Source: a virus. From it: DNA of 23,310 bases. The notes below the pieces were generated by a model that was not told the origin of the DNA, did no database searches, and saw only the letters and a list, made by a program, of their open reading frames with translations. The stretch spans positions 1-23,310 of IMG/VR virus record IMGVR_UViG_3300031951_001237; one strand, 5' to 3'. Position numbers and translations under genes: made by a program. Position 1 is the stretch's first letter. Each line of letters begins with the position of its first letter. Positions 11,139 to 18,815 of the stretch are shown one piece after another.

Positions 11139-11878
11139 TGGCGGTGCGCCTCGATCCGTTCCGGCGGATCCAGTCCGTCGGCTGGCCGTTGGGCTTCGCA
11201 TTGCCGTACCTTGATCGCGTGTTTGTGTCAAACGTGCTCGATCAATCGGTGGCGCCCGTCACTAAATCGTGCCCGGGCAACAATCCGCCGGGCGGGTACC
11301 AGGATCGGGTCGATCGCACGTCGCAAACTTGGATTTTTCATTTTCGCGCGACGCCATCTAGTCCGGACACCCTGGTTCAGCGGGTCGAGACCATCAATTA
11401 CGATCGCAGTAATTGTTTCGTTTGCGCGTCGCCGTCGGAGCGCGCTGTCGCGTATCGATCGGTGGTGATGCGCTACGTGAGCGCGGGTCATACGCACGCG
11501 GCGCTTTCCGCATTCGCTTTTACAGAGGTATCCGGCGGCGCTTTCCTCATTCCGAATTCAGAAAACCCGCTGGCCTGGCCTCAGCCGGACTGGACGTTAA
11601 CAGGGCTTGCAGCAAATCGAATCTTGATTATAAGTCACGCGCAGCGGCGCGATCGCTTCCCGGGTGAGGCGGTCGCGATCACGCCGATGCGCTGGGATCA
11701 ATATCTGCTGAATCCCGGCACGACGACGCACCAGTCGAGCCCGATCACGCCGTTCGCGTCGGCGCCTACAAGCCTGTTCAATGCGCCTGATCTGTTCTAT
11801 CAGGAGGGCGCCGATAACGTCGATCCGGGCTTAGATCAGACCTACCGCGCGCGGTGGTCAGTGCAAATGCTGCTCTAG
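11138..11878 (+). CDS. Hypothetical 246-aa terminal protein of the tail operon
   Basis: Not recognised. It is the last gene of the rightward structural operon, starting at ATG 11138 in a TGATG overlap. The protein is aromatic and beta-rich with clustered Cys (SNCFVCASP) and a Pro/Asn-rich middle. Parts of the gene (about 11320-11420 and 11590-11640) have lower GC and codons such as ATA, AGT and TTA that are scarce elsewhere in the window, hinting at recent acquisition, as is common for host-range genes. It may be a fibre partner or receptor-binding tip. It ends at TAG 11876, sharing CTAG with the convergent regulator gene. Confidence 0.6.
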   Translation: MAVRLDPFRRIQSVGWPLGFALPYLDRVFVSNVLDQSVAPVTKSCPGNNPPGGYQDRVDRTSQTWIFHFRATPSSPDTLVQRVETINYDRSNCFVCASPSERAVAYRSVVMRYVSAGHTHAALSAFAFTEVSGGAFLIPNSENPLAWPQPDWTLTGLAANRILIISHAQRRDRFPGEAVAITPMRWDQYLLNPGTTTHQSSPITPFASAPTSLFNAPDLFYQEGADNVDPGLDQTYRARWSVQMLL

Positions 11879-12219
11879 CTCAAATCGAGCAGGTACTGCG
11901 CCGGGGCCGCGCGCAATTTGCGCAGCTCGCGCCACACGGTATCGAGCTCGCGCAGCCGATACGCGTAGGCCGCAATTTCCGTGAGCGGCACGCCGTCGGG
12001 GTTGTCCCGGTAGTACAGCGCGCCGCGGCAGTAGCGCAGGCGCTCGCCGCCGGGCCAGGGCACGCGCCCGGCGTGGATTTCGAGCAGCGCGCGCGCCGCC
12101 GGCGGCGCCTGGTTGGCGCGGGCGTAGCGCTCGAGCGTGCGGCGACTGACGCCGAGCTCGACGGCGAGCTGATCGGCGGGGACGGGGGCGTAACGGATCA
12201 AGTCTGCGATCGCGGGCAT
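11875..12219 (-). CDS. HTH DNA-binding protein, DUF3653/VC1465-like
   Basis: A 114-aa leftward protein. Residues about 15-50 (ADQLAVELGVSRRTLERYAR) form a clear helix-turn-helix. The rest, with RLRYCRGALYYRDNPDGVPL, resembles the DUF3653 / VC1465-like phage family, which includes the Xer recombination activation factor of TLC-phi-related elements. The resemblance is by layout and is moderate. The ribosome-binding site GAGG lies upstream of the ATG at 12219. It follows the repressor-like gene in the same leftward unit and probably acts as a regulator. A role in Xer-dependent integration is possible given the absence of an integrase, but untested. Confidence 0.7.
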   Translation of the reverse strand: MPAIADLIRYAPVPADQLAVELGVSRRTLERYARANQAPPAARALLEIHAGRVPWPGGERLRYCRGALYYRDNPDGVPLTEIAAYAYRLRELDTVWRELRKLRAAPAQYLLDLS

Positions 12220-12270: not shown

Positions 12271-12684
12271 TCAAACGGCCGCGAACCCGGACGGCATAGC
12301 GGCGGCAAGCGGGGGAAAACTCACGGGAAAAGTGCGCGCGCGCGGCGGGCGTTTATTCCCGGTCACGACTTTACATAATAAACAGTTAGTTACCGTCGCA
12401 GCGACCGCCGCCGCCGCCAATCCTTGATTGGCGATGCGCAGGAGGGACGCGGCGATCTCTTGATCCTCTTCCCGCTCCGCTTGGGCAATCGCGATCAGCG
12501 CGCCCGGCTCGACTCCCAGTATCAGCGCGGCTTTTTTGCAGTTCGCGCGCGACATTGAGCACTTCCCGGCGCGGATCCGGCTGATCTTTTGCGGCGGGAT
12601 CCCTGTGATCTTGCTTACCCGGTAGTCGGTGCAGTCGCCATAGGCGCGCGCGATCGCGTCGATGATTTCGATCGAGTTTTTCAT
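12271..12684 (-). CDS. Repressor-like XRE-family protein, DUF3693-like
   Basis: A 137-aa protein starting at the ATG whose first base is 12684. Residues about 20-60 (YRVSKITGIPPQKISRIRAG) are a Cro/CI-like helix-turn-helix, followed by ALILGVEPGALIAIAQAERE, a pattern like DUF3693 proteins of xanthomonad phages. The tail has an Ala/Val-rich hydrophobic stretch (about 88-108, GLAAAAVAATVTNCLLCKVV), also seen in that family and perhaps membrane-associating, then a basic Pro-rich end. It is transcribed leftward from the promoter at 12713-12741, over which the 34-bp palindrome extends, so autoregulation and control of the early operon are likely. A longer open frame upstream crosses the promoter region and is not used. 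Confidence 0.78.
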   Translation of the reverse strand: MKNSIEIIDAIARAYGDCTDYRVSKITGIPPQKISRIRAGKCSMSRANCKKAALILGVEPGALIAIAQAEREEDQEIAASLLRIANQGLAAAAVAATVTNCLLCKVVTGNKRPPRARTFPVSFPPLAAAMPSGFAAV

Positions 12685-12703: not shown

Positions 12704-12723
12704 GATAGGGACAAGATAGGGAC
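12704..12723. repeat. Two direct GATAGGGAC repeats at the leftward promoter
   Basis: GATAGGGAC occurs at 12704-12712 and again at 12715-12723, a start-to-start spacing of 11 bases, about one helical turn. They cover the -10 region and start site of the leftward promoter. They look like tandem operator half-sites for a second regulator acting on the repressor gene, for example the other HTH protein. This is inference. Confidence 0.45.
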
Positions 12724-12741
12724 TAATTCCTTTTTTGCCAA
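12713..12741 (-). promoter_or_regulatory. Leftward promoter for the repressor unit
   Basis: On the minus strand, TTGGCA (12741-12736) is followed after exactly 17 bases by TATCTT (12718-12713). This gives a sigma70-like promoter with a start site near 12706 and a short leader to the ATG at 12684. The -35 box touches the left end of the palindrome. Confidence 0.6.
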
Positions 12742-12774
12742 TGAACAAATTTGCACATGTGCAAATCTGTTCAT
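12741..12774. promoter_or_regulatory. 34-bp near-perfect palindromic operator
   Basis: The left arm ATGAACAAATTTGCACA (12741-12757) is the reverse complement of the right arm 12758-12774 except at one base. It splits into a 16-bp perfect core (TTTGCACATGTGCAAA) and outer ATGAACA/TGTTCAT boxes. It lies between divergent promoters and covers their -35 boxes, so a bound dimer or tetramer would block both directions. It is the most obvious operator in the window and the likely target of the repressor-like protein. Confidence 0.8.
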
Positions 12775-12779
12775 ACACT
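12751..12779 (+). promoter_or_regulatory. Rightward early promoter
   Basis: TTGCAC (12751-12756) and TACACT (12774-12779) are separated by 17 bases, the ideal sigma70 spacing. The expected start is near 12786, 22 bases before the first early ATG. The -35 box and spacer lie inside the palindrome, so repression by occupancy is expected. Confidence 0.65.
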
Positions 12780-12807
12780 CGGGCCTGTCCTTCACAGGGG
12801 CGACCCG

Positions 12808-12999
12808 ATGACCATTCCGATCAATCAAGTTTTCCAGTGTGGCGCCAGTCGGCGCGGCCGGTGGCTGGCGCCGCCGGAATGGTTGGGGCTTTTGCCTCTC
12901 CCGGGTCCCTGTGGACCGGCCGCGCCTCCTATCTCTTGCTGTCCGTGCCTGTTTTCGGGCGCCTTCGGGCGCCTGTGTTTTCCCAATCACAGGGGCTAA
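12808..12999 (+). CDS. Hypothetical 63-aa first early protein
   Basis: Not recognised, and not certainly a gene. ATG 12808 opens 63 codons rich in Pro, Gly and Cys (PGPCGPAAPPISCCPC), unlike a Cro protein, although it holds the place of cro. In favour: it starts just after the predicted promoter, has an AGGGG ribosome-binding site, and shares the leader TCACAGGGGC-N6-ATGAC with the next gene at identical spacing. Its stop is three bases before that gene. Against: composition is unusual and a hairpin lies inside its 3' end. It may be a translated leader controlling the early operon. Confidence 0.42.
   Translation: MTIPINQVFQCGASRRGRWLAPPEWLGLLPLPGPCGPAAPPISCCPCLFSGAFGRLCFPNHRG
12958..12981 (+). 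terminator. Terminator-like hairpin in the early leader
   Basis: GGCGCC-TTCG-GGCGCC (12958-12973) is followed by TGTGTTTT. The stem is short but all G:C with a stable TTCG loop, and the T content behind it is exceptional here. It lies about 170 bases after the predicted early start site, in the place of lambda tR1, so it may attenuate early transcription. Confidence 0.45.
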
Positions 13000-13002
13000 C
13001 CA

Positions 13003-13146
13003 ATGACGATGATTCCGCTCGACTTTGAAACCGTGCGCCGCCGGGCCTGGCTGGCGCGCTGGCACGCCGCGACCGTTGAGAAACGCGCCCGCGCGGCCGG
13101 ATGGGCCGCGATCCTGGTTCTCGTGTTCCTGGGGGCTGCGCGATGA
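13003..13146 (+). CDS. Small 47-aa protein with C-terminal membrane segment
   Basis: Not recognised. ATG 13003 follows an AGGGG ribosome-binding site, and the stop overlaps the next start as ATGA. The first half is basic and amphipathic (RRRAWLARWHAATVEKRARA) and the end is hydrophobic (WAAILVLVFLGAA), long enough for a short transmembrane helix. The coupling on its 3' side supports expression. It may be an early membrane-associated factor such as an exclusion or host-takeover peptide, but nothing in the sequence proves that. Confidence 0.55.
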   Translation: MTMIPLDFETVRRRAWLARWHAATVEKRARAAGWAAILVLVFLGAAR

Positions 13147-13316
13147 CTTACCGGATCTGCAAGCGCAGCTATTTTGCGAACCAGGCGCCGCACGTGTGGC
13201 GTTCCGCTGGGGCATACGATCACCGCACGGCGACGATGATCATTGCTTCGTTGCGTCGCGATTTCCCGCATCACCCGGCCTACCTGGGCGCGGACTGCTG
13301 GATGGTGCCGGCATGA
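13143..13316 (+). CDS. Hypothetical 57-aa early protein
   Basis: Not recognised. It starts at ATG 13143 (ATGA overlap) and its TGA overlaps the ATG of the HNH gene. The protein has several His, two Cys and many aromatic residues (YRICKRSYFANQAPHVWR, PHHPAYLGADCWM). The Cys and His could bind metal, but no standard zinc-finger spacing is present. Coupling on both sides supports a real early gene. Confidence 0.58.
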   Translation: MTYRICKRSYFANQAPHVWRSAGAYDHRTATMIIASLRRDFPHHPAYLGADCWMVPA

Positions 13317-13963
13317 GTCGCCGGCCGTGGACCGCCGCCGAGGATGAGATCCTGCGGCGGCTTTACCCCGATCGCAGGGCCGCCGACGTCGCCGCCGAGC
13401 TCGAGCGCAACGTGTGCCAGGTGCACGCGCGAGCAAAACGGCTGGGCGTGCGCAAGTCCGACGCGTTCAACGCGTCGCCACAATCCGGCCGAGTGGCAAA
13501 GGGGCGGCTGCTGCCGGCATCGCTGCCTTATCGGTTCAAGCCGGGCCAGGTGAGCCACAACAAGGGCCGCCACTACCAGCCAGGCGGGCGCGCCGCTGAA
13601 ACGCAATTTAAGCCTGGCCTGGTCCCGCATAACACCCAACCGATCGGCACTGAGGTCTGGAATTCCGCCGGCTACCTGGTGCGGAAAATTTCAGACGCGC
13701 GCGGGCTGACGCAGCGTCAGCGGTGGCGCTTCGTTCACGCGTTGATCTGGGAGGCCGCGCACGGGCCTGTGCCGCGGGGTTTTGGCTTGGTGTTCCGCAA
13801 TGGCAACCGGGCCGATCTGCGCCTCGATAACCTCGAGCTGGTCAGCGATCAGGAGCGCATGCGGCGAAACTCGATCCACAGCCTGATCCCGTCGGAGCTC
13901 AAAGAGCTGATCCAGCTGAATGGGCGGCTCAAGCGGCGCATTCGCGAGAGGTGCGGCGCATGA
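13313..13963 (+). CDS. HNH endonuclease family protein with Myb-like N-terminus
   Basis: A 216-aa protein. Residues about 3-48 (RRPWTAAEDEILRRLYPD) are a Myb/SANT-like DNA-binding segment. Residues about 120-185 form an HNH_3-like region with VHALIWEAAHGPVPRGF and RLDNLELV. The C-terminal helices (ERMRRNSIHSL...KELIQLNGRLKRRI) match the layout of HNH proteins of Pseudomonas-type phages. The position where relatives have GHIVVFKDG-like residues reads GFGLVFRNG here, so a His usually present there appears to be missing and nuclease activity is uncertain. The function in early gene clusters is often assumed to be DNA processing. Start ATG 13313 is coupled to the gene before it. Confidence 0.75.
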   Translation: MSRRPWTAAEDEILRRLYPDRRAADVAAELERNVCQVHARAKRLGVRKSDAFNASPQSGRVAKGRLLPASLPYRFKPGQVSHNKGRHYQPGGRAAETQFKPGLVPHNTQPIGTEVWNSAGYLVRKISDARGLTQRQRWRFVHALIWEAAHGPVPRGFGLVFRNGNRADLRLDNLELVSDQERMRRNSIHSLIPSELKELIQLNGRLKRRIRERCGA

Positions 13964-14202
13964 AAAACAAAATGGTGGACATCCGAAACCATTTGATCGC
14001 GGCGATGGAAGGGCTCGCCGATCCCGATAACCCGATGGACATCGAGCGCGCCCGCGCGATCTCCGAGATCGGCCAGGTGCTGATCAACTCCGCGAAAGTC
14101 GAGGTTGACTTTATCAAGGTGACGGGCGGGCAGGGGACCGGCTTCCTGGTCGAGCATGATCCGAAAGCGCCGCCGCGCCTGATTTCGCGAGGGTCAACAT
14201 GA
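13960..14202 (+). CDS. Conserved 80-aa phage protein following the HNH gene
   Basis: The layout MVDIRNHLIAAMEGLADP, then MDIERARAISEIGQVLINSA and KVEVDFIKVTGG, is familiar from small proteins next to HNH-family genes in phages of Pseudomonas and related hosts. The function is not known. It looks mostly alpha-helical. The start is ATG 13960 (ATGA with the HNH stop); a GTG nine bases upstream is in frame but less likely. The pairing suggests it works with the HNH protein. Confidence 0.68.
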   Translation: MKNKMVDIRNHLIAAMEGLADPDNPMDIERARAISEIGQVLINSAKVEVDFIKVTGGQGTGFLVEHDPKAPPRLISRGST

Positions 14203-14660
14203 TCCCGGCCTACGGGCGGGAGCTGATCGCGCTCCGCGACCGCGGCGCGCACCCCGATCTGGTCGTCATCTGCTACGCGTCGCGCTTTGCCGTGCAGCGC
14301 GCGCGCGAGTTCGCCGCGCGCCTCGACGCGCCGCACCCGCTGATCGCGACCGATGATCAGGTGCGATTCGGATCGATCGGCTGGTGGCTGCTGCGCGGGC
14401 TCGGCGCGGCGGTGCTGAACGCGGAAGGCGCGCGGGCCCATGTGCCGACATTCTCGCGCCTGGTGGCGGACGTCGCGCGCGAGGCTGCGCCCGTGCTGGT
14501 GTTCCATGACCAGCACGGCGGTCACTGGGGTAGCGACGCGTCGGAATTCCTGTGGTGCCAGCGGTTCACGGCGCACGCGCCCGACGGCTGGCCGGCGGGC
14601 TGGTCCGATGAGCTCGATCAAGGGTATCTCGCGCGCCTGCGCCGCCGGGCGGAAGCATGA
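14199..14660 (+). CDS. Hypothetical 153-aa early protein
   Basis: Not recognised. ATG 14199 overlaps the previous stop, and its TGA overlaps the helicase start. The N-terminal half has an alternating strand-helix pattern (DLVVICYASRFAVQRAREFA, then LIATDDQ), a Rossmann-like start, and the C-terminal half carries His and Trp (HDQHGGHWGSDASEFLW). The direct coupling to the VapE-like gene suggests a replication-linked role. No catalytic motif can be named with confidence. Confidence 0.6.
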   Translation: MIPAYGRELIALRDRGAHPDLVVICYASRFAVQRAREFAARLDAPHPLIATDDQVRFGSIGWWLLRGLGAAVLNAEGARAHVPTFSRLVADVAREAAPVLVFHDQHGGHWGSDASEFLWCQRFTAHAPDGWPAGWSDELDQGYLARLRRRAEA

Positions 14661-15946
14661 CCGGCGCGGATCCAGCGGCGGAAGGCTGGCAGTCCGCCGT
14701 GACCGAAATGTGGCCGCAGCGGCTCGCGAAGAGTGACGCCGGCGCCGTCAAGCCATCCCTTTACAACCTGTCGTTGATCCTTCAGGGCGCGGAGGAATTC
14801 CGCGGCCTGATGCGCATGGATCGCTTTGCGCAGCGCATCGTAAAGACCAGGCCGACGCCGTGGCACTCGAGCGCGCGCGAGTGGACGCCGACGGATAGCA
14901 CCCTGCTGCGATCCTGGCTCGCGCAAAAGCGGCTTGGCGAATACTCAAAGCTCGACATAAAGGACGCGGTGGTAGCCGCGGCCGAGGGCGAGGGCTTCCA
15001 CCCTGTGCAGGATTATCTGCGCGGCCTGGTGTGGGACGGAAAACCGCGCGTGTCGCTGTGGCTCGGCGCGTACCTGGGCGCGAGCCTGGGCCGCGGCGGG
15101 AGCCTGCGCGATTACGTCGACGCCGTCGGGCGCATGTTCCTAATCGGTGCGGTTAAGCGGGTGATGGAGCCCGGCTGTAAGTTCGACTCCGTGCTGGTGC
15201 TTGAGGGCTTGCAATCCCTGGGCAAATCAACCGCGCTTTCGATCCTGGGCGGCGACTGGCACCGCGACACACCGTTTCAGCTCGGCGACAAGGACGCGCT
15301 ACAGACGATTCAGGGCGTGTGGATATACGAGCTCGCCGAGCTCGAGGGCTTCACGAGCGTGGACGCCAGCAAGGCGAAAGCGTTTTTCAGCTCGCCCGTG
15401 GACCGATTCCGGCCGAGTTACGAGCCGGCGATCGTCGAGTTCGCGCGGCAATGCGTGTTCGCCGGCACGACGAACCAGATCGCCGACTACCTGCGCGACA
15501 GTACCGGCAACCGCCGGTATTGGCCGATCTACTGCCGCAAGGTCGACGCCCGCGCGCTCGCGGAGGACCGCGACCAGCTCTGGGCGGAAGCGTTTTGGAT
15601 GTGGTCGGCCGGCACGCCGTGTTTCGTCGGGCGTGACGATCCGCTCTGGCCGCTGTTCGAGTCTGAGCAGCTGCTGCGCACGACGACCGATCCCTGGGAG
15701 ACGGCGATCTCGCAGTACATCGACGGGTGCCCGCCACACGAGCGAGACCGCTTCACGTCGCTGGACATTCTGACCAAGGCGCTGTTGGTCGACGTCAACC
15801 GGCTGGATCAGCGCGGCATGTCAATGCGCGTGGGGCGAATCATGCGCGATCTCGGCTACGTGAAACGCCAGGCGACGACCGTCGAGGAGCGGCGCGTGGC
15901 GCGGTTTTTCTATGTGCGGCATGACACACCTGCTCCGGAGGCCTGA
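14657..15946 (+). CDS. VapE-like replication helicase/ATPase
   Basis: A 429-aa protein of the virulence-associated E (VapE) family, P-loop ATPases that serve as replicative helicases in phages and pathogenicity islands. Walker A is GLQSLGKS (residues 184-191) and the Walker B region is GVWIYELAELEG (about 220-231). Before them is the family's YLRGLVWDGKPRVSLWLG block, and afterwards AGTTNQIADYLRDSTGNRRYWP, the usual sensor/arginine region. A primase domain is not present in this polypeptide, so priming may depend on the host or another protein. The 3' end already contains the first iteron (15922), tying the gene physically to the origin. The start overlaps the previous stop. Confidence 0.87.
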   Translation: MTGADPAAEGWQSAVTEMWPQRLAKSDAGAVKPSLYNLSLILQGAEEFRGLMRMDRFAQRIVKTRPTPWHSSAREWTPTDSTLLRSWLAQKRLGEYSKLDIKDAVVAAAEGEGFHPVQDYLRGLVWDGKPRVSLWLGAYLGASLGRGGSLRDYVDAVGRMFLIGAVKRVMEPGCKFDSVLVLEGLQSLGKSTALSILGGDWHRDTPFQLGDKDALQTIQGVWIYELAELEGFTSVDASKAKAFFSSPVDRFRPSYEPAIVEFARQCVFAGTTNQIADYLRDSTGNRRYWPIYCRKVDARALAEDRDQLWAEAFWMWSAGTPCFVGRDDPLWPLFESEQLLRTTTDPWETAISQYIDGCPPHERDRFTSLDILTKALLVDVNRLDQRGMSMRVGRIMRDLGYVKRQATTVEERRVARFFYVRHDTPAPEA

Positions 15947-16046
15947 AAGTGTGTCATAAAAACTTCAACAAATTCAAAGCGATGACACACCATGACATAC
16001 CATCATTTGCAGGTGTGTCATTAATTTTCTTCGGAGGATCATGCAC

Positions 16047-16136
16047 ATGACACACCTGCACCGGAATTTAGGGGCGCGCGTATACGCGCGCGCGCGCACG
16101 CACTCCAGGTATGTCATGTGTGTCAGTGTGTCATGA
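16047..16136 (+). CDS. Possible 29-aa peptide inside the origin
   Basis: ATG 16047 follows GGAGG (16033-16037) at a good distance and opens 29 codons rich in Arg, His and Val (THLHRNLGARVYARARTHSR). ATG 16041 is also in frame but too close to the ribosome-binding site. The frame is made from iterons and the purine/pyrimidine tract, so it may be accidental, yet the ribosome-binding site is one of the few in this stretch. A translated leader at the origin is possible. Confidence 0.25.
   Translation: MTHLHRNLGARVYARARTHSRYVMCVSVS
16074..16103. other. 30-bp alternating purine/pyrimidine tract with 18-bp palindrome
   Basis: Every base from 16074 to 16103 alternates purine and pyrimidine, mostly CG steps. 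16074-16091 is a perfect 18-bp palindrome centred on TA/TA. Such tracts adopt Z-DNA or cruciform structure under negative supercoiling. Its place among the iterons suggests a supercoil-sensing element of the origin. That function is inferred. Confidence 0.75.
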
Positions 16137-16197
16137 CAATGAATTTAAAAGGGTTTTTCATGACACACCTGCAAAATCAGGTGTGTCATGGTGTGTC

Positions 16198-16725
16198 ATG
16201 CGGGGTGGCGCCGTGATCCGGGGCCTATTGCGCCGGTGGGCGCGCCGCCTGCGGTGCCGGACGATTGCGATCGACGGGCGGCCGTACCTGCGCCGCTACC
16301 TGGTCGCGCGCGCCTTCGGCTGCGAGCTCTACCTGCACGAATTTTTGACCGCCGACGGCGAACGGCACCTGCACGATCATCCGTGGGCCTGGTCGGCGTC
16401 GCTGGTGCTGGCCGGCGGCTACGTCGAGCAGGTGCTGCGGCACCTGGACGGCTACGCCGGTCCGGTGACCGCGTTGCGTGCGCACGACGCGCCCGGGTTT
16501 AACTGGGTGGGCCAGGGCTTCCACCGGATCCACGCGCTGACGCCTGGCACGTGGACGCTGTTCGCCGTGGGCCCGCGCCGCAGGATGTGGGGGTTCCTCG
16601 AGTACCAGGAGCCCAACGGGCCGACGATCTATCACCAGCCGCTTGAATACGACCGATCGGCCGAGCCGGCCGACTGGTCGACCTTCCCGCGTGGCGCGGA
16701 CGTCGAGGGGGTGCGCCGTGGCTGA
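16198..16725 (+). CDS. Cupin-like metal-binding protein
   Basis: A 175-aa protein taken from ATG 16198, after the last iteron. GTG 16213 is an alternative, and ATG 16111 would place iterons inside the coding region. Residues 57-63 (HLHDHPW) and a later GFHRIHAL give the His pattern of a metal-binding cupin barrel. The strands around them (WSASLVLAGGYVEQVL, GTWTLFAVGPRRRMWGFL) fit a double-stranded beta-helix. It could be an oxygenase, isomerase or a binding protein, and no substrate can be deduced. It is the first gene after the origin and overlaps the endolysin start by eight bases, so it is co-transcribed with lysis genes. Confidence 0.68.
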   Translation: MRGGAVIRGLLRRWARRLRCRTIAIDGRPYLRRYLVARAFGCELYLHEFLTADGERHLHDHPWAWSASLVLAGGYVEQVLRHLDGYAGPVTALRAHDAPGFNWVGQGFHRIHALTPGTWTLFAVGPRRRMWGFLEYQEPNGPTIYHQPLEYDRSAEPADWSTFPRGADVEGVRRG

Positions 16726-18112: not shown

Positions 18113-18276
18113 CGTGGATCACCTGGCTGGCGGTGGTGCTGTGGTTTGCGCTGCTGGCGTGTTCGCTGGCGGCGATCGTGGTGCTCTACCTGCTCGAACG
18201 GCAATGGGATCGCGAAGATCGCGAGCAGCTCGAGGTGCTCGACAATCCCGTGCCCAACTCAAAGCCGCGGCCGTGA
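18109..18276 (+). CDS. 55-aa single-pass membrane protein (possible spanin-like)
   Basis: ATG 18109 is coupled to the holin stop. The protein is one N-terminal hydrophobic helix (WLAVVLWFALLACSLAAIVV) followed by a highly charged segment (LLERQWDREDREQLEV) and a Pro-rich end. An N-terminal anchor with a periplasmic charged helix is the outline of a small inner-membrane spanin, but it is shorter than usual and no lipoprotein partner was found in another frame. A holin accessory role is equally possible. Confidence 0.6.
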   Translation: MTWITWLAVVLWFALLACSLAAIVVLYLLERQWDREDREQLEVLDNPVPNSKPRP

Positions 18277-18815
18277 TGCGCGAGCAGGACAAATCGACGA
18301 CGCCCGCGGGCTTGCGGGATGAATGGCGCACGCCTGATCACGTGTTCGCCTGGGCCGTCCGCCGCTGGGGGCCGTTCGATCTGGATTTGGCCGCGACGCC
18401 TGACAATGCGCGCGCACCGCGATTCTTCACGCGCGAGGACAACGCACTCGCGCAGGACTGGGCCGCGGCCGGCCGTCGCGCCTGGTGCAATCCGCCCTAT
18501 TCGAACGTGCGCCCGTGGCTGCACCGTGCGGTATATGAGCACGCGCGCGGGCTTGCCTCTGTGTGGCTCATTCCGGCATTCCGCGGGGACGTCTATCACG
18601 CTCAGCTCACGTACAAGCACGCGACCGAGATCGTGCTTATCTCGCCGCGGATCGCGTTTGTGCTGCCAGGTGTCGGCGCCAAGGCGGGCAATACGGGCGG
18701 CTCGATGTTTGTCTATTTCGACGGCGAACCGCGCGCGGCGCCCATTCCCGCGCGCATTTCCATCTGCACCATTACGCGAGGATCCCATGCTGCAACGTGT
18801 CACGATAACGAATGA
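18276..18815 (+). CDS. dam: DNA N6-adenine methyltransferase, phage Dam type
   Basis: A 179-aa protein of the phage Dam family (PF05869-like). DEWRTPDHVFAWAVRRWGPF at residues about 14-33, FDLDLAATPDNA, and the catalytic NPPY motif (72-75, in WCNPPYSN) are all visible. It would methylate adenine in a short site, possibly GATC, protecting phage DNA or regulating it. The start ATG 18276 overlaps the previous stop (TGATG). The last codons extend beyond the ATG of the next gene (18787) by 29 bases. Phage Dam genes are often near lysis or packaging genes, as here. Confidence 0.88.
   Translation: MREQDKSTTPAGLRDEWRTPDHVFAWAVRRWGPFDLDLAATPDNARAPRFFTREDNALAQDWAAAGRRAWCNPPYSNVRPWLHRAVYEHARGLASVWLIPAFRGDVYHAQLTYKHATEIVLISPRIAFVLPGVGAKAGNTGGSMFVYFDGEPRAAPIPARISICTITRGSHAATCHDNE

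Follow-up and report, generated by a model that had tools for sequence, protein, structure and literature searches.

The leftward early operon of the tailless phage PM2 and of plasmid pAS28 comprises a repressor gene, a dif-like site, and a DUF3653 gene, and it diverges from the replication operon. Krupovic and Bamford (PMC1950889) reported P15 and P16 as repressors encoded by the PM2 operon and pAS28 as its probable source, and the PM2 dif site has been published (PMC9966536). In PM2, the first sizeable gene annotated after gp c on its strand encodes a DUF3653 protein, and the replication genes are divergent; from these gene positions, we infer that gp c is P16 and gp a is P15. In the Ralstonia filamentous phage phiRSS0, attP (dif) lies in ORF13, a helix-turn-helix (HTH) repressor-like ORF, and XerCD integration truncates the product from 156 to 130 aa, a change whose function was offered as a hypothesis (PMC3816273). 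In mycobacteriophage BPs, the 136-aa form of gp33 undergoes degradation and repression is exerted by the 103-aa form, which makes immunity dependent on integration, and an operator lies within the early lytic promoter (PMC4557955). The literature on Xer integration covers filamentous phages, microviruses, and tailless PM2-like phages, and a Vibrio survey ascribed tailed-prophage specificity to prophage-encoded integrases. Our literature search, whose coverage was incomplete, found no precedent for a switch dependent on Xer integration in a tailed phage.

The DNA analyzed here, hereafter the window, is a viral sequence of 23,310 nucleotides (IMG/VR record IMGVR_UViG_3300031951_001237) that represents the complete circular genome of a ~23-kb tailed phage, as indicated by a repeat of 127 bp at the two ends and by an ORF in the portal position that is completed when the ends are joined. 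Comparison with the described systems revealed that (i) the window shares with PM2 the order of repressor gene, DUF3653 gene, and divergent replication operon, although the link between the two DUF3653 proteins is weak; PM2 differs in being tailless, in being described as virulent, in having operators that look like 19-bp direct repeats, and in having a repressor that stops short of the dif site and has no hydrophobic stretch, whereas the window repressor ORF contains the dif-like site and encodes such a stretch; (ii) phiRSS0 is a filamentous ssDNA phage and the window a tailed dsDNA phage, but both have a dif-type attP, in the window a proposed one, within a repressor-type ORF; (iii) BPs resembles the window, with its proposed attP and probable operator, in the attP within the repressor gene, the loss of 33 residues on integration (predicted in the window), the divergent promoters, and the operator within the early lytic promoter, but BPs encodes its own integrase and its degron is demonstrated, whereas the window has no integrase, host XerCD is proposed in its place, and the degron is a guess, and the two repressors are not known to be related; and (iv) lambda OR likewise has divergent promoters under an HTH repressor, but uses three operators and Cro. 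The window has one palindrome copy, and none of the first rightward genes tested gave an HTH match, so that no Cro-like protein was identified on the right; a contrast with the multi-operator lambda OR was also drawn by an earlier reading of the sequence alone (the sequence-only reading). That reading emphasized one operator and a hydrophobic repressor tail, both of which are modest; the stronger finding is that this tailed phage, which has no integrase, carries a dif-like attP inside its repressor gene.

The palindrome and the divergent promoters

The 34-bp near-perfect palindrome (12741–12774; arms ATGAACAAATTTGCACA|TGTGCAAATCTGTTCAT) was confirmed: 16 of its 17 pairs match, compared with 13/17 for the runner-up within the window. 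It is not a chance feature and is far ahead of all other palindromes in the genome; 60 dinucleotide-preserving shuffles of the whole window reached 12–15 pairs at best, and 2000 local shuffles did not exceed 13. The genome carries a single copy, as determined by searching for the core with up to 3 mismatches. On the rightward side, the palindrome covers the −35 box and the spacer of the promoter; on the leftward side, it overlaps the −35 box by a single base, in agreement with the sequence-only reading.

The leftward promoter (12741–12713, minus strand) consists of a −35 box TTGGCA (12741–12736), a 17-bp spacer, and a −10 box TATCTT (12718–12713); the rightward promoter (12751–12779, plus strand) consists of TTGCAC (12751–12756), a 17-bp spacer, and TACACT (12774–12779). 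The consensus score was 9/12 for the former, which ~6% of shuffles equaled, and 7/12 for the latter (8 with an 18-bp reading), an ordinary value among shuffles, so that neither promoter was better than chance by consensus scoring alone. The two divergent sigma70-like promoters are instead upheld by alignment with L084, a relative found through a capsid search (capsid 71% identical) whose sequence extends across the equivalent region and whose repressor is 54% identical to that of the window. L084 has TTGCGC-17-TATTTT in both directions, column for column (GCGCAA/AAAATA on the plus strand at the boxes aligned with the leftward promoter), with the 17-bp spacers in register and a gap of 9–10 bp between the two −35 boxes in the aligned sequences; this alignment is better evidence for the predicted promoters than any consensus score. 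Two exact GATAGGGAC repeats (12704–12712 and 12715–12723), 11 bp apart, lie over the leftward −10 box, as had been noted; L084 has mere traces of them, with no clear conservation.

The palindrome was absent from L084 and from every other relative searched, and no exact match was found among viral contigs. The switch region had no DNA similarity to phage records and no match in Rfam and tRNA searches. The 17-mer CCTGTGGACCGGCCGCG is present in seven viral contigs, which is about the number expected by chance, L084's own contig aside. In place of the palindrome, L084 carries inverted TAGTCACG/CGTGACTA half-sites, and the related prophage G389 has no palindrome exceeding the chance level. Since no relative has the palindrome, an operator function draws no support from conservation, and its absence from L084 makes "operator" a putative label. 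The regions upstream of ten related repressors share two words, GACTA (10/10) and TGCAA (9/10), counts that exceed those of all 200 shuffle sets, in which no 5-mer was present in 9 members; TTGCA and TGCAA are contained in the arms of the window palindrome. In PM2-type members and L099, lag analysis detected direct repeats of ~19 bp that span the repressor promoter (L093, L095, L098, L099, and L101, including a Billgrantia element), a trait seen in PM2-type members and not a formal group criterion. Lag analysis of the window found no such 19-bp repeats; the palindrome is there instead. Thus, the operator layout appears to have diverged within the family, with the palindrome as a local variant. 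The HTH repressor probably binds the palindrome as its predicted operator. That the palindrome is the sole operator, serving both directions, is plausible but unproven, given the other inverted half-sites in L084 and the 19-bp direct repeats of the PM2-type members. Another dif element, G341, has a parS-like GTTCCACGTGGAAC palindrome in its repressor intergenic region (L106, ~737–750).

The rightward transcript would begin with a structured leader (about 12785–13003, plus strand) that contains a terminator-like hairpin (12956–12975) before the first likely gene. The stability of its fold is moderately unusual (z of −2.8 in the window and −1.3 in L084; a P4-like attenuator was considered). A 20-nt block (12907–12926) is identical in the L084 leader (15312–15530), although the reading frame there is a different one, and some of the block can pair with the complementary stretch 12851–12862; the leader is a possible attenuator. 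The rightward early operon (13003–15946, plus strand) contains small genes, an HNH endonuclease gene (13313–13963), and a VapE-type helicase gene (14657–15946). After the helicase gene, eleven copies of ATGACACACC on both strands, with at most 1 mismatch, lie at 15921–16199, compared with at most 3 copies in shuffles; these are likely replication-origin iterons. This 23-kb phage also encodes an adenine methyltransferase of the Dam type (18273–18815) and a cupin protein resembling cysteine dioxygenase (16111–16725).

The repressor gene and its dif-like site

The repressor gene (12271–12684, minus strand) encodes an HTH protein of the PM2 P16/phrog_4441/phrog_638 type, 137 aa long in the phage form, as revealed by profile matches (phrog_4441, E = 1e-14; phrog_638, E = 8e-11) and a tblastn match to PM2 gp c (E = 2e-4). 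The Pfam DUF3693 profile (PF12472) did not match the window repressor up to E = 10, but it does match the repressor homolog of the dif element G279. By sequence, the protein is a member of the P16/DUF3693 HTH group; the proposal that it is DUF3693-like is therefore borne out by PHROG clustering, although not by Pfam. A hydrophobic C-terminal stretch is present in the repressors of several relatives, and its recurrence means that it is not the unusual feature that the sequence-only reading took it to be. The AlphaFold model was uninformative (pLDDT 43). A second HTH gene (11875–12219, minus strand) is P15/DUF3653-like (48% identical to L165 and 53–54% to L084, whereas PM2 gp a was matched only weakly by BLASTP). 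The reading of the locus as a divergent-promoter lysis–lysogeny switch under a small HTH repressor is well supported by the PM2-like gene order, the promoters conserved in a syntenic relative, and the GACTA and TGCAA words shared upstream of ten relatives. The earlier interpretation thus stands as to the switch, is unproven as to a sole operator, and fails as to the unusual tail.

The most informative part of the switch, which the sequence-only reading missed, is a dif-like XerCD site within the repressor ORF, 350 bp from the palindrome region. We designate this site (12368–12384, minus strand; full 28-nt site, 12368–12395) the proposed attP; it comprises a central TGTTTA and the XerD arm TTATGTAAAGT, and the second HTH gene lies across it from the repressor. 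The conserved block TGTTTATTATGTAAAGT (minus strand, 12368–12384) is identical in L084 and L135 and matches the corresponding half of the E. coli dif (central region and XerD arm) at 14/17 positions, whereas the best of 60 shuffles matched at 12. The XerC arm has diverged and matches dif at 3/11 positions. The same dif search also recovered the published PM2 site and placed a dif-like site at the same position in L096, L098, G389, G341, and G096; in G279 and G004, the XerC side is present. L083, L085, and L135, three other metagenome records, are fragments 92–100% identical to the window in most proteins, and none of the three extends to the palindrome; L135, a near-identical contig, keeps the frame and protein ending of the window.

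The site is translated as NCLLCK, TVYYVK, CILC, or DIHYAK, in a frame that differs among relatives, which indicates that the DNA site and not the peptide is conserved. We rejected TVYYVK as a conserved C-terminal protein motif, together with a suspected frameshift in the window, because the same DNA occurs in several frames and matches dif. The HYAK-type C-terminal motif of Pfam DUF3693 proteins (L113/L162 of G279, L168, and L169) appears to be a translated dif arm and not a feature of the protein itself.

Integrated relatives and the two repressor forms

Neither a tyrosine nor a serine recombinase was found in the window genome, whereas the controls were positive in 14 and 13 of 14 genomes. 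In G096, G341, G279, and G004, a repressor-bearing element lies between two dif-like sites 6.6–10.9 kb apart on one contig. The G389 prophage is syntenic with the window and has dif sites at both ends, which sit on separate contigs: the repressor end on C102, with a VapE 50% identical to that of the window, and the other end on C278, with a P15-like gene (48%) and a tail module (35–52%) collinear with the window. This synteny, with dif at both ends, points to a tailed prophage of the window's kind bounded by dif. No lysogen of the window phage itself is known; the phage is proposed to integrate via host XerCD at dif.

Since the site lies at the 3′ end of the repressor gene, a phage that inserted itself into the chromosome would truncate its repressor in the same step, and the length of the protein would thus depend on integration. 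The 3′ extension of the ORF (12271–12367, minus strand), downstream of the XerD arm and ending in GFAAV, would be lost. Chromosomal dif sites with a TGTTTA center (L175 and L177, from the family of G389) would yield a 104-aa window repressor ending in NCLLC, so that recombination with a dif of matching center is predicted to remove 33 of the 137 residues of the phage form. In L084, the predicted prophage form depends on the host site. The long phage forms of three relatives were reconstructed by rejoining the prophage ends: the prophage and rejoined repressors have 117 and 143 aa in G389, 124 and 151 aa in G341, and 123 and 160 aa in G279, so that the rejoined forms are 26–37 residues longer, with the prophage stop in or directly after the dif arm. 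The filamentous phages SMA9 (160 aa) and PSH1 (157 aa) carry the long form in their genomes, with the dif arm inside the ORF and both proteins ending in PAKDEIAA, which confirms the reconstruction. These DUF3693 repressors share with that of the window the long form, the dif arm within the ORF, and a degron-like ending, but SMA9 and PSH1 are Inoviridae, and their repressors are only distantly related to the window repressor. The GFAAV ending of the window long form is suggestive of an ssrA degron; tail endings vary among the family (AAV, IAA, SPV, AAW, and AVR) and are degron-like in some only.

A proposed integration-dependent switch and its alternatives

The reading that we consider probable is a Xer-based, integration-dependent lysis–lysogeny module in an integrase-less tailed phage, in which a repressor that binds the palindrome is truncated at dif and its long form is less stable or active. 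Of two back-to-back sigma70 promoters, the left would drive the repressor and the right the replication operon. The HTH repressor, bound to the palindrome over the rightward −35 box and spacer, would shut off lytic replication, and its effect on its own promoter would be indirect or modest. By geometry, RNA polymerase would be blocked on the right by a dimer or tetramer bound at the palindrome center, which lies near −28 relative to the rightward start; relative to the leftward start, the center is near −51, and no occlusion beyond the −35 edge would be expected; one operator could thus repress the right promoter and spare or modulate the left. Integration at the host dif would part the repressor from the P15-like gene, and an in-site stop codon would replace the last 33 residues (137 to 104 aa), thereby tying lysogeny to integration; the short prophage form is expected to exceed the long phage form, with its GFAAV end, in stability or activity. 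The module is consistent with what the sequences contain, namely the palindrome, the conserved promoters, the dif half-site, the lack of an integrase, the synteny with a dif-bounded tailed prophage, and the two ORF forms in relatives; from these, we infer palindrome binding, the use of XerCD by the window phage, and a stability difference between the forms.

An ordinary divergent switch joined to a Xer attachment site, in which the two repressor forms are functionally equivalent and attP overlaps the 3′ end only through incidental compactness, appears rather unlikely. It would accommodate the repressors of G096, G004, and the PM2 group, which end before the site and show that truncation is not universal, and the diversity of tail endings, but it does not account for the stop codons of G389, G341, and G279, which fall within the arm or immediately past it, while the rejoined forms stay open for 26–37 more codons. 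The C-termini of SMA9 and PSH1 are identical while their N-terminal parts are only ~40% alike, which also argues for a functional tail, although overlap with the next gene could preserve it as well. Binding of a host regulator or of the second, P15-like HTH protein to the palindrome, in place of the adjacent repressor, is unlikely: the inner and outer parts of the palindrome could serve two proteins, both P15 and P16 of PM2 are described as repressors, and the palindrome is not conserved in L084, but it occurs as a single copy beside the repressor promoter, and its arm words TTGCA/TGCAA recur upstream of related repressors. We regard it as improbable that the dif-like block is fortuitous or a relic of coding sequence in a phage that is not Xer-temperate (virulent, or a phage-plasmid with a repressor); only 14/17 positions of half of dif match, and PM2, which has the same module, is described as virulent, but the site is kept at the same place in L084, L135, G389, G341, G096, and PM2, and the syntenic tailed prophage is flanked by dif on either side. 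It is very improbable that the palindrome is a non-regulatory site, such as one for replication or telomere resolution. Palindromes of 34 bp are known from protelomerase and recombination sites, but the genome annotation has no protelomerase or recombinase candidate, for which reason we rejected that reading; moreover, the palindrome lies exactly over the conserved divergent promoters, and the iteron array is the better origin candidate.

Beyond the Xer-based module itself, and with a likelihood somewhat short of even, a small tailed-phage lineage may couple dif/XerCD lysogeny to immunity, with an unstable 137-aa repressor becoming a stable 104-aa one and chromosome-dimer resolution serving as the switch, and the cassette of repressor, attP, and DUF3653 gene may be shared with filamentous phages by exchange. 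Tailed phages are generally assumed to carry an integrase; a dif-type attP in the repressor gene, together with a syntenic dif prophage, would extend Xer integration to tailed phages. These observations suggest a portable cassette that joins immunity and integration across unrelated viruses, and they suggest why DUF3693 proteins have a common C-terminal motif, which would stem from translation of a dif arm, and how a temperate lifestyle is possible for small tailed phages that lack an integrase.
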